29,000 nt of DNA, taken from positions 1 to 29,000 of the IMG/VR virus record IMGVR_UViG_3300010885_043950. One strand, 5' to 3'. The position numbers were made by a program, and so were the translations under genes. Positions within the stretch are counted from its first letter, which is position 1. Each line of letters opens with the position of its first letter. A model generated the notes under the pieces. It was not told the origin of the DNA. It made no database searches and worked only from the letters and a program-made list of their open reading frames with translations. The DNA comes from a virus. This document shows, piece by piece, positions 8,892-18,603 of this stretch.

Positions 8892-9258
8892 GTTTAATTA
8901 TTTCCTTAAAATTAAAAACTCTTGGCTTCCTTCTTTCTTTATATTCTAAGTCAGCTCCGCAATGTTTACAAAGTTTATGCTCTTTAGCGCAATCAATGCA
9001 AATCTCATCGGTGTTGCTATTGCCAAACCATAATTCTTTGTTGCAAGATTTGCAGCTGGTGTGAACACAAGCATTAGTAACCATCCCGCCGCCTCTATAC
9101 CAACAAACAATACATTCGCTGGCTTTGAGTCTCTCTTTTTTGTCAGGATCTTTTTGGAGATTTTCAGCAAGTTCTATGGTTTGTTTAACATAATCCGACT
9201 TTCCCCAATTTTTAAAGCTAATATCTGAATCTGTTAATTTTGGTCTTTGTCTAATCAT
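8884..9258 (-). CDS. Multi-cysteine zinc-binding protein (124 aa)
   Basis: Unrecognised protein with CIVC, then CVHTSCKSC, then CIDC and CKHC from about residue 49 to 99, enough for two or three zinc sites of ribbon or treble-clef type. The N-terminal 45 residues are polar and helical. A GAGG Shine-Dalgarno precedes the ATG. Such proteins in phage early regions often bind nucleic acid or host regulators; this is inference. Confidence 0.7.
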   Translation of the reverse strand: MIRQRPKLTDSDISFKNWGKSDYVKQTIELAENLQKDPDKKERLKASECIVCWYRGGGMVTNACVHTSCKSCNKELWFGNSNTDEICIDCAKEHKLCKHCGADLEYKERRKPRVFNFKEIIKHD

Positions 9259-15339: not shown

Positions 15340-17229
15340 ATGGCTTTTGAGAACTTTAAAAGAAAGATAGCTCTAAATTACTTAGAAAAGAAGGGAAGTG
15401 CTTACAGTCCTCTATTGTTTAACTTTCTTACTAATGATTTTGCCTTTGGCACTACATCTGGCAAATATTTAGAATATTACTGCCAAGTCGCCCCTGTTGG
15501 AGATGCTATCAATAAAATAGCTAGTGAAACTGCTTGCGTTGCTCTTTTTCCTTACGCTAAAGCTGAAAAGGAATCAAGAATAGCTTTAACGAATAGCCCT
15601 TTTGTCAAAACTTTCCGTAAACCTAATTTTAAGCAAACTGGGATAGATTTTAAACAAGAGGGTTTTATACACTACTTAGCTACTGGAAATAATTATATTT
15701 ATCTTTCTAGTGTTTTAAGTGCTGACAAGAGAAGTGTTTATCAAAGTCCCTTAGAAGTCTATAATCTACGCCCTGATTACATTACGCCAGTTCAAGACAT
15801 GTCTGGCTACCCAGAATATTACCTTTACAACCCAAATGGAAAACAAAAATGTTTCCATAAGAGTTATATAAATAACATAAATGGTCAATTAATTGAAGCT
15901 TATGTTGAAGATGAGGGCTTTGGAGTGTTATTGCATTGGAAAGAACCTTCCAATAATCAACTATTCTCAATGCTTTATGGTGATTCACCTTTGCAGAATG
16001 TTGAAATCGAAATTAATCAGTATTTAGAAGCGTCAATACACAATGCTAACCTTTTGAGGAACGGTTTGTCTTCTAAGATGTTGTTTACTCCTAAAGATGG
16101 ATCAAATCCGCCAAATCAAGATCAGCTAGATAAAATAAGAGATTATTTAAAAAGTGCTTACTCTGGTTTTAATAATGCTGGCAAGAACCTACTTATTGGA
16201 ATGCCTTTTGATGTTAAGCCTTTGGATATAAACCTCAAAGACATGGATTTTGAGAAGTTGATGCGAAGAATGAGGGTGGCTATTTACAATAAACTAAATA
16301 TTCCGCTTCCTATGGTTGAAGGTGAGTTCACCTCAAATACAAACATGAAAGAGGCTAACCTAAACTTTTATGACAAAGCCGTTCTGCCGCTTCTTGCTAA
16401 ATATTGTGAATATTATTACTGTTTTGTTTATTCCAACTTTTACAAAGATGATGGTGTTTTTGAGATTGGTTTTGAAGAATCTTCAATTCCAGCTTTGCAA
16501 CCTCGTTTATTTGAAACAGTGCAAGTTTTACAAAAAGCTAAAATAGCTACTTCAAACGAACTAAGAGAATTTATTGGATTAGGACGCTGCGGAGTTGGTG
16601 GCGATGCTCTTTATGTTGATGGAAACCAAGTTGCGGTTGCTGGTGATGAAAATATGAGTGATACTATTGGTATTCCAGCAGGAATGGTAAATATGCCTGA
16701 TGACGAGGAAGGAGAGTTGGACGAAGAAGAGGAAGAAACTCTTGAAGGCGATGAAACTGAATTTGAGGAAGAAGACGAATCGGAAGAAAAAGCAGTGGGG
16801 ATTAATCTAAAGCCTACTGATACAATGGCGAGAAATGCTGCTCGTGGTTTAGAGCTTCGTAAAAAATATGGAAGAGGTGGTACTGATGTTGGAGTAGCTC
16901 GTGCAGTTCAATTAAGAAGCCGTGAAAACCTAACACCTAGAATAGTTGCCAGAATGGTTAGTTTTTTTGCAAGACATGGCGTAAATGAAGGCAAAAATAA
17001 GAAACCTAATGGCGAACCTTCTAATCATTATATTGCGTGGTTGTTATGGGGTGGTGATTCTGGACGCTCTTGGGCTAACTCTAAATGGAAGCAAATCCAA
17101 AACTCAAGAATGAAGACTAAAGAAACAGAAAATGATATTCTTGCCAAACTTTTAAACACGACTCTTGACATTAAGGGTAATAGGGTTTATTCTGATGAGG
17201 AAGTGGAGAAGTTGGTTGCTGGTGAATAG
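15340..17229 (+). CDS. HK97-type portal protein with C-terminal extra domain
   Basis: A 629-residue protein. Residues 1-430 are the dodecameric portal that forms the DNA channel at one capsid vertex: the N-terminal FENFKRKIALNYLEKKG, ...VAPVGDAINKIA..., MVEGEFTSNTNMKEANLNFY and the ...LRRFIGL-like region are typical. An acidic linker (about 450-485) follows. Residues about 488-590 form a separate domain (MARNAARGLELRKKYGRGGT.. with HYIAWLLWGGDSGRSWANSK) seen in various phage head proteins. The usual portal length is about 400-500, so this is a fusion. Start ATG15340 has no Shine-Dalgarno. First gene of the head operon. Confidence 0.9.
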   Translation: MAFENFKRKIALNYLEKKGSAYSPLLFNFLTNDFAFGTTSGKYLEYYCQVAPVGDAINKIASETACVALFPYAKAEKESRIALTNSPFVKTFRKPNFKQTGIDFKQEGFIHYLATGNNYIYLSSVLSADKRSVYQSPLEVYNLRPDYITPVQDMSGYPEYYLYNPNGKQKCFHKSYINNINGQLIEAYVEDEGFGVLLHWKEPSNNQLFSMLYGDSPLQNVEIEINQYLEASIHNANLLRNGLSSKMLFTPKDGSNPPNQDQLDKIRDYLKSAYSGFNNAGKNLLIGMPFDVKPLDINLKDMDFEKLMRRMRVAIYNKLNIPLPMVEGEFTSNTNMKEANLNFYDKAVLPLLAKYCEYYYCFVYSNFYKDDGVFEIGFEESSIPALQPRLFETVQVLQKAKIATSNELREFIGLGRCGVGGDALYVDGNQVAVAGDENMSDTIGIPAGMVNMPDDEEGELDEEEEETLEGDETEFEEEDESEEKAVGINLKPTDTMARNAARGLELRKKYGRGGTDVGVARAVQLRSRENLTPRIVARMVSFFARHGVNEGKNKKPNGEPSNHYIAWLLWGGDSGRSWANSKWKQIQNSRMKTKETENDILAKLLNTTLDIKGNRVYSDEEVEKLVAGE

Positions 17230-17264
17230 TATCATTGCTAATTAACTTCTTTCTTTAAGATAAA

Positions 17265-17402
17265 TTCGAGTGGTGGAATGGTAAACACACTCAGAGCGGC
17301 TAGAAATAGCAATGCGAGCGTATCCTGAATTGACAGGAAGTTCTTGTATGTGAGATAGGGGTGTTTAATATCTCCTTTGTGGGTTCGAGTCCCACCTCAG
17401 AA
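17265..17402 (+). ncRNA. Oversized tRNA-Leu-like RNA
   Basis: The D-arm region TGGTGGAATGGTAAACACAC closely follows bacterial tRNA-Leu, and the T-arm GTGGG-TTCGAGT-CCCAC (17379-17395) is perfect. The acceptor TTCGAG (17265-17270) pairs with CTCaGAA (17396-17402) with one bulge. But the RNA is about 138 nt, against about 85 for tRNA-Leu. No credible anticodon loop is seen. The middle instead holds GCTA-GAAA-TAGC (17299-17310), TCCTG/CAGGA (17323-17338) and GAGATA/TATCTC (17352-17374). TAAACAC (17282-17288) could also pair with GTGTTTA (17361-17367). No CCA is encoded. Read as a tRNA-like non-coding RNA; a tRNA with an insertion is the alternative. Confidence 0.65.
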
Positions 17403-17426
17403 AACACATACCTTAATTTATCACTT

Positions 17427-17705
17427 ATGGCAGAAATTATTAATTTAGCGGAATATCGCAAAAAGAAAGAGCGAGAAAAATATATTGCGAACTGCCAGAC
17501 AAGAATTGCGGTTTCAGATATTAGTTTTTCTAGTTTAAACGAAATCGAACAAAGACTAATTGACCACCTTATAAAGGAGGGAGAGTCTAAGATGTTGATT
17601 CTTGATGATCCAATAAGTTGTGGCTATGTACCAGATGAGAATTTCTTAAAAGAATATTCAAAAAATTTTAAATACAGAATAGACTTTGATAATGAATCTT
17701 CGTGA
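17427..17705 (+). CDS. Hypothetical protein between portal and MuF genes (92 aa)
   Basis: Begins MAEIINLAEYRKKKEREKYI, then a helical and strand-rich acidic part ending DNESS. I start at ATG17427 because a longer frame would run into the T-arm of the tRNA-like RNA. No Shine-Dalgarno. It overlaps the MuF gene by 14 nt. Unrecognised; position suggests a head-assembly or expression-control accessory. Confidence 0.6.
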   Translation: MAEIINLAEYRKKKEREKYIANCQTRIAVSDISFSSLNEIEQRLIDHLIKEGESKMLILDDPISCGYVPDENFLKEYSKNFKYRIDFDNESS

Positions 17706-18603
17706 AATTGACATCGAAAAAAGAAAAATAGAAAGCCGATACATAAAGCCTATCCGTTCTATTTTTCGTCAAATGAACCAAGATGCCATTAATCTTTACA
17801 AAGCAACTAAATCTGTAAATGCTGAATCGGTTGCTAGAAACTACACCCCAGACTTTTTAAAAGTTTGCAAAGACTGTCTAAGAGAAACAATCCAAACTTT
17901 TGGCTATTTGGAACGCAAGCCAAGTAAAAAAGCCATAGATGCAGAAATAAATCAAGATCAACTAGAAAACATCAACAAAGAGTTTGAAAGACTCGCTATT
18001 CTCTTTATAGCAACAGAAAGCGAACGCCAAGCCCTTTATATTCAAGACACCAATGCAAAAGAATTATCAGAAGCCCAAATCAATGCTTTAACTAAGCACA
18101 TCAGAAAAGAAGCGAGATTGCAGACGGCTATCCAAGAATTAGAGCAAAGAATAATGCAAATCCGTTTTCAAGGTTTTATTCAAGGTAAAGAAACTGATTT
18201 AAGCAAATTAGATGCAAGATTGGCTAAATACAAAAAAGAACTAACTGCTTTGCAAAAAAACAAAGATAATGCGGTTGCAGAAGAGATAAATATTGCTTTA
18301 GACAAGAAAGAAGAATCAAGAGCAGAGTTAATTGCCGAAACCTTGGCTGGAAATGCTGAAAGTTGGTCAAGACAAGAAGAGGCAACTTTGATTGCCTTAA
18401 ATCTTGGAGTGCAGATAAAGAAAGTTTGGCGTGGATTTTTAGATGATAGAATTAGACCAAATCATTTAGCGGCAAATGGACAAACAGTACCTTTAAATCA
18501 AAACTTTATTGTCGGTGGTTATTTAGCACAAACGCCCAGAGATTCTAAGCTTCCCGCTTCTGAAACTTTAAGATGCCGTTGCTATGTTGATTATTTAAGA
18601 TAA
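17692..18603 (+). CDS. MuF-like minor head protein
   Basis: A 303-residue protein with a long helical N-terminal part (residues about 1-235, including a coiled coil around 130-205). The C-terminal domain (about 243-303) has KKVWRGFLDDRIRPNHLAAN, GQTVPLNQNF and the closing LRCRCYVDY, the Phage_Mu_F (PF04233) signature. MuF proteins are injected or head-internal minor capsid proteins near the portal, which is where this gene lies. Starts at ATG17692 within the upstream gene. No toxin domain is fused. Confidence 0.88.
   Translation: MNLREIDIEKRKIESRYIKPIRSIFRQMNQDAINLYKATKSVNAESVARNYTPDFLKVCKDCLRETIQTFGYLERKPSKKAIDAEINQDQLENINKEFERLAILFIATESERQALYIQDTNAKELSEAQINALTKHIRKEARLQTAIQELEQRIMQIRFQGFIQGKETDLSKLDARLAKYKKELTALQKNKDNAVAEEINIALDKKEESRAELIAETLAGNAESWSRQEEATLIALNLGVQIKKVWRGFLDDRIRPNHLAANGQTVPLNQNFIVGGYLAQTPRDSKLPASETLRCRCYVDYLR

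Follow-up and report, generated by a model that had tools for sequence, protein, structure and literature searches.

An anticodon-less tRNA-Leu-like RNA in a phage head operon and a candidate class of non-decoding tRNA mimics

Phage tRNA genes are usually interpreted as translation helpers. Among RNAs that share parts of the tRNA shape, the bacterial Y RNA YrlA – reported in phages too – mimics tRNA and has parts resembling the D and T arms, mitochondrial t-elements are tRNA-like structures used in transcript processing, and tmRNA joins a tRNA-like end, from which the anticodon is absent, to pseudoknots. The nearest published relatives that we found of the RNAs described here are the tRNAs of Lak megaphages, enlarged tRNA genes with enigmatic introns (PMC6784885); both sets are found in gut or environmental phages, but Lak tRNAs become tRNAs after intron removal, whereas the RNA at the centre of this report and the main class of its relatives do not.

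That RNA was found in a 29-kb virus record (the window, that is, the whole stretch of 29,000 nucleotides analysed). Like bacterial, type II tRNA-Leu, it has a Leu-type D arm, G18G19, a T arm, U48 and A73; unlike tRNA-Leu, it has no anticodon arm, and it carries a 90-nt insert and a bulged acceptor stem. A73 and A14 are Leu identity features. The class to which it belongs differs from tmRNA in having Leu- rather than Ala-type features and in that many of its inserts (down to ~20 nt) are too short for a pseudoknot and a tag ORF; membership was rejected, as the Rfam tmRNA covariance model, at its gathering score, matched neither the window nor 15 class loci. It differs from YrlA in having a full acceptor stem, and most carriers have no TROVE/Ro60 gene: such a gene was absent from two sister contigs of the window, and of 24 class contigs (which are fragments) only three carry one; Y RNA membership was rejected on these grounds. 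From t-elements the class is set apart by its phage location, its structured, variable insert and its full D arm. Of the suggestion in the first-pass annotation that this is a tRNA mimic comparable to Yrl RNAs or tmRNA, mimicry remains the leading idea, while membership of those two families has been dropped.

The RNA in the head operon

A home-made covariance model of tRNA-Leu-type bodies (R1), built from other tRNA-Leu-type RNAs, aligns over its full length to 17265-17403 with 50.8 bits (E 8.5e-12, E-values from this model being rough). The RNA is therefore 139 nt long, on the + strand, within one base of the 138 nt (17265-17402) first assigned to it, and lies in the intergenic gap between the portal and head-morphogenesis genes. 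As ordinary tRNA-Leu genes reach 51.8-52.8 bits with R1, about level with the window RNA, the match tests the tRNA body only and not the missing anticodon arm. The features of the locus are as follows.

15340..17229 (+): portal protein gene, upstream (PHROG 12, E 2e-35)
17265..17403 (+): whole tRNA-Leu-like RNA (R1 match as above), discriminator A at 17403, CCA not encoded
17265..17270 (+): acceptor stem, 5′ strand UUCGAG, paired to 17396-17402 with one A bulged
17273..17288 (+): D arm, stem GUG/CAC (17273-17275/17286-17288), loop GAAUGGUAAA including G18G19 (from the sequence and R1)
17289..17378 (+): insert of 90 nt replacing the anticodon arm and variable region, its last base U being position 48; removal of a single intron gives no credible anticodon arm
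17299..17310 (+): hairpin GCUA-GAAA-UAGC, in predicted folds
17312..17349 (+): hairpin AUGCGAG/CUUGUAU around UCCUG/CAGGA (17323-17338), in a constrained fold only
17352..17376 (+): third hairpin, GAGAU/AUCUC or AGGGG/CUCCU, in predicted folds
17379..17395 (+): T arm GUGGG-UUCGAGU-CCCAC, from the sequence; a C to U change in a related contig (L007) leaves a G-U pair
17396..17402 (+): acceptor stem, 3′ strand CUCAGAA (R1 match)
17427..17705 (+): 92-aa ORF starting 23 nt past the RNA, with no family above cut-off
17686..18603 (+): head-morphogenesis gene, downstream (PHROG 2468, E 9e-26)

The observation of an anticodon-less tRNA-Leu-like RNA is confirmed. The acceptor stem, D arm and T arm of a canonical tRNA-Leu are all present in the R1 match, the acceptor (UUCGAG/CUC-A-GAA) with six pairs and one bulged A that the first-pass annotation had not remarked on, an arrangement expected by chance at ~0.6% per 6-mer; the Leu-type D arm and intact T arm that had been read from the sequence are there in every element, from G18G19 to the UUCGAGU loop. 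The missing anticodon arm, too, was correctly noted: folds of the unspliced RNA and a search for intron solutions gave no 5-bp anticodon stem with a 7-nt loop, nor did removal of a single intron yield a credible one. ARAGORN, run without intron options, makes a sole call in the window, a spurious-looking tRNA-His at 17323-17403. The base at position -1 is A, as is that at 74. An 8-bp AT-rich complementarity flanks the RNA (17257-17264 and about 17411-17418; GATAAATT/AATTTATC) and is mostly retained in L007.

The architecture of the insert is less secure. Since the fold of the RNA as a unit is no more stable than those of its shuffled versions (z -1.0; 36 of 200 shuffles equally good), no single hairpin is proven, and the three originally described, one with a GAAA tetraloop, appear in predicted folds without any being individually established. 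The AGGGG/CUCCU alternative of the third stops 2 nt short of the T stem, a placement shared with other class RNAs, and with only 5 bp is not significant alone. The 7-bp match said to link the D arm to the loop of the third hairpin does exist (17282-17288 with 17361-17367; p ~0.012 against shuffles, for a pairing chosen post hoc), but D-arm/insert pairing is not enriched in related RNAs (4.23 versus 4.47 in shuffles) and was rejected as a class feature.

A class of tRNA-Leu-shaped phage RNAs

Two scans of a viral collection each returned tRNA-Leu-type bodies without an anticodon arm from at least 80 viral contigs – counts to be read as lower bounds, with a search pattern that fixes the D and T loops and contigs that are fragments. 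The first looked for a Leu-type D loop, 70-100 nt and a T loop; 6-7 acceptor pairs are found in 94 of the 117 distinct matches listed (unselected), their acceptor sequences are highly varied, and ARAGORN without introns detects almost none of them. The second, based on the commonest 5′ end (AGTCAGGTGGCGGAAT...), gave at least 111 distinct RNAs, 70-162 nt long, whose 3′ ends match and whose inserts are unrelated, and one extra match of 272 nt that covers two elements. With ordinary tRNAs removed, at least 173 RNAs with at least 148 non-redundant inserts remained. That the window RNA has such a large set of relatives could not have been seen in the first-pass annotation.

Strong covariation is seen in their acceptor stems. 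In a set pre-selected for at least six acceptor pairs, all seven pairs have changed on both sides, and 99.4% of cells are paired, compared with 74% after shuffling. Conservation of the D and T loops is partly imposed by the search pattern, but position 48 lies outside it, and here 137 of 146 class RNAs listed have U, as the 15-48 contact of the tRNA-Leu fold would need. U-1 (76%, against a background of 27%), A73 (85%) and C74 (90%), with CCA not encoded, are frequencies among the class matches listed that point to tRNA-type end processing. The window RNA shares the Leu-type D arm, the T arm, U48 and the absence of an anticodon arm, its own insert structure being unproven; it has none of the perfect 7-bp acceptor, U-1 and C74, which are majority rather than universal traits. 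It is an outlying, divergent member, and its bulged acceptor and missing U-1 and C74 mean that it may be a decaying copy.

The inserts, for their part, tend to be folded. Those listed have a mean folding-energy z of -0.91 (sem 0.10), and helices whose 3′ strand stops exactly 2 nt short of the T stem occur in clear excess, both with at least five pairs (49 versus 19.1 in shuffles) and with at least six (29 versus 6.2). In several members (L214, L173, L195, L126, L048, L136 and L227), the 5′ strand of this helix lies within the loop of an earlier hairpin, forming an H-type pseudoknot. Compensatory changes were taken from true homologue pairs only, all-pairs alignments being too gappy: pairing in the helix next to the T stem is preserved through two double changes between L213 and L227 and through one between L048 and L126. 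In the shortest members, whose inserts measure 20-24 nt, no structure is apparent in the insert.

On some contigs, several copies whose inserts differ lie among ordinary tRNAs that include normal tRNA-Leu genes, so that class RNAs do not replace tRNA-Leu. A search for a fixed protein partner among neighbouring genes found mixed phage genes and no such partner, and a search upstream for the Bacteroidota promoter motif gave nine matches in the last 10 nt and overall no clear signal. Shine-Dalgarno-like sequences precede 4% of ORFs on main-class loci, versus 20% and 30% in comparison sets; from their scarcity and the lack of an encoded CCA we infer Bacteroidota hosts, and many carriers probably infect this phylum. 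In the window, 2 of 22 ORFs have such a sequence.

Searches beyond the viral collection turned up little. The 84,980 prokaryote genomes searched gave three matches, all on MAG contigs, of which one bears the label Chitinophagaceae; another 117 Bacteroidota genomes lack the GTCAGG 5′ end; and blastn did not find the class inserts in 50,697 phage records. End-sequence searches of cultured phages returned mostly ordinary tRNAs, plus one enlarged gene in Sulfitobacter phage phiCB2047-B, an unannotated tRNA-Leu-like gene whose anticodon loop is enlarged (L273, 1496-1588). No Rfam family covers the class, though some members are scored as tRNAs bearing a large insertion, and a literature search that covered few subscription papers, and so is weak evidence of novelty, found no description of it. 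The class is apparently large, carried by uncultured phages and undescribed. If it is real, tRNA finders have been missing or miscalling tRNA-shaped, non-decoding phage RNAs.

Locus and possible functions

As had been noted, the RNA sits in a head operon, with the portal gene upstream and the head-morphogenesis, protease and major head protein genes downstream. A search of related phages found it again, with the 92-aa ORF, in two further contigs: IMGVR 3300009160_000168, identical to the window across the RNA/ORF region, and 3300012667_000989 (L007), 98.5% identical over 200 bases around the RNA and with two substitutions within it, which affect the first base of the insert and the T stem. In the contigs found, the ORF was seen only together with the RNA. 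In other relatives (those compared across the variable site, window 17229-17690, include L009, L017 and L008), the portal/head-morphogenesis gap is empty or holds a GroES-like gene (Cpn10) or a different small ORF. The gap is a cargo site, in which the RNA and ORF act as one cassette. Another relative (L011; portal 59% identical) has, at 8918-9060 (-), a 143-nt tRNA-like stretch whose CCA is encoded and whose T loop is unusual, next to an ordinary tRNA-Thr.

A swap at such a site could have left a decayed or passenger tRNA-Leu pseudogene, a serious possibility for the window copy even if a fairly improbable account of it on balance. The defects of its acceptor and ends would fit, as would the occurrence of the RNA in two phage populations only and the changing contents of the site; against decay, the insert is the same in the window and L007 except for its first base, while flanking coding DNA has diverged by a few percent, the T-stem change preserves pairing, and U48 is kept.

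The leading reading is that the window RNA belongs, if divergently, to a tRNA-Leu-shaped, non-decoding phage class and would act as a host-matured tRNA mimic, which we consider plausible though somewhat short of an even chance. For the class as a whole, we come close to even confidence in a widespread phage ncRNA that retains the tRNA-Leu body for processing and recognition and has exchanged the anticodon arm for a fast-diversifying, often pseudoknotted domain, yielding non-decoding mimics mostly in Bacteroidota phages. The R1 match, acceptor covariation, U-1/A73/C74, U48, the folding and compensatory helices of the inserts and the presence, beside normal tRNA-Leu genes, of copies whose inserts differ within one genome all favour mimicry. 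The RNA would be co-transcribed with the surrounding genes, excised by host RNase P and tRNA 3′-end enzymes and given its CCA; once mature, it might occupy at least one host protein able to recognise the acceptor or elbow of tRNA-Leu – candidates are leucyl-tRNA synthetase, EF-Tu and tRNA-modifying or tRNA-targeting enzymes – with the insert perhaps providing stability or a second binding surface. The earlier thought that it decoys tRNA (anticodon) nucleases sits less well with an RNA that has no anticodon loop. A large set of such non-decoding RNAs, with structured domains that diversify, would represent a new means of conflict between phage and host or of RNA processing in phages.

The end signatures also suit the main rival, itself unlikely, in which the RNA is a tRNA-punctuation processing signal: RNase P and tRNA 3′-end nucleases would cut the operon transcript, parting portal mRNA from an mRNA that begins with the 92-aa ORF, and the insert would be a spacer. 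Class RNAs are intergenic, with both neighbour genes co-directional in 85 of the 121 loci listed, and the start of an ATG ORF with 30 or more codons' worth of protein (at least 30 aa) falls 10-35 nt past the RNA in 23% of main-class members and in 35% of the remainder, compared with 4% in the antisense control; the ORF start in the window falls within this range. Most members, however, have no ORF so near, many lie within ordinary-tRNA clusters that would be cut anyway, the window copy itself has neither U-1 nor C74, and a spacer leaves structured inserts with compensatory changes unexplained.

Hypervariable inserts, differing among the copies of one genome, would also be expected of a tRNA-scaffolded regulatory RNA whose ends shield a variable antisense or guide segment. 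We regard this as quite improbable, given that complementarity of inserts to the surrounding phage DNA is not in excess: across 131 loci the longest antisense match to the insert's own contig averages 9.35, versus 9.56 in shuffles. Antisense action on the phage's own contig was rejected at this chance level.

Introns and other enlarged tRNAs

A tRNA with a short intron, like those of Lak phages, whose splicing rebuilds the anticodon arm, is a very improbable account of the window RNA. With a variable region of at most 18 nt, its best single-intron solution is poor (6.5); allowing up to 25 nt gives CUCA|UCUUGUAUGUGAG, which scores 8.5, but 6% of shuffles match this score, the implied anticodon UGU is ill-suited to a Leu body, and the outer (27-43) pair is broken in L007. 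A normal Leu anticodon arm restored through an intron, which the first-pass annotation had named as the finding that would overturn it, is thus not what the tRNA models give, their best solutions being at chance level. Among 88 main-class members, whose acceptors are AGTCAGG-like, one is restored by taking out an intron, no better than the 2.3 of shuffles. With other acceptors, 6 of 41 reach 8.5, against 0.7 shuffled, so this group includes some tRNAs that may well splice (e.g. L154, L158 and L106). L158 and L154 are tRNA-Leu(UAA) genes with the anticodon loop enlarged by an insertion of 44 to 62 nt; in L158 the insertion is apparently at U34/A35, the site of the cyanobacterial group I intron, and is far too short to be one.

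Some further support for splicing in phage tRNAs comes from a scan for type-I D arms, run as a control and expected to be empty, which returned enlarged type-I tRNAs; enlargement as such is therefore not Leu-specific. Among these, L281-L400 (e.g. L356, L371, L387, L350, L309 and L375) have type-I bodies with inserts of ~40-54 nt in the anticodon stem, and removal of one insert yields canonical Thr, Asn, Ile, Lys and Gly tRNAs (25% perfect, versus 0% in shuffles). Many of these inserts have a common hairpin with ACAGCAA after it. The inserts are similar to the unexplained introns in the tRNAs of Lak phages and may form a separate small intron class.

A second enlarged type-I tRNA-like RNA, marked by the motif CTCATGGTGAAGGACC, recurs in L282, L361, L391, L386, L329, L388 and L311, and Bacteroidota genomes contain tRNA-Leu-like genes with a greatly lengthened anticodon stem (L402, L403 and L405). 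Three large phages of 175-207 kb (G011, G012 and G013; loci L408-L412) encode both class RNAs and TROVE/Ro60 proteins, and the tRNA-like RNAs near the TROVE/Ro60 gene in G013 could be Y RNAs.
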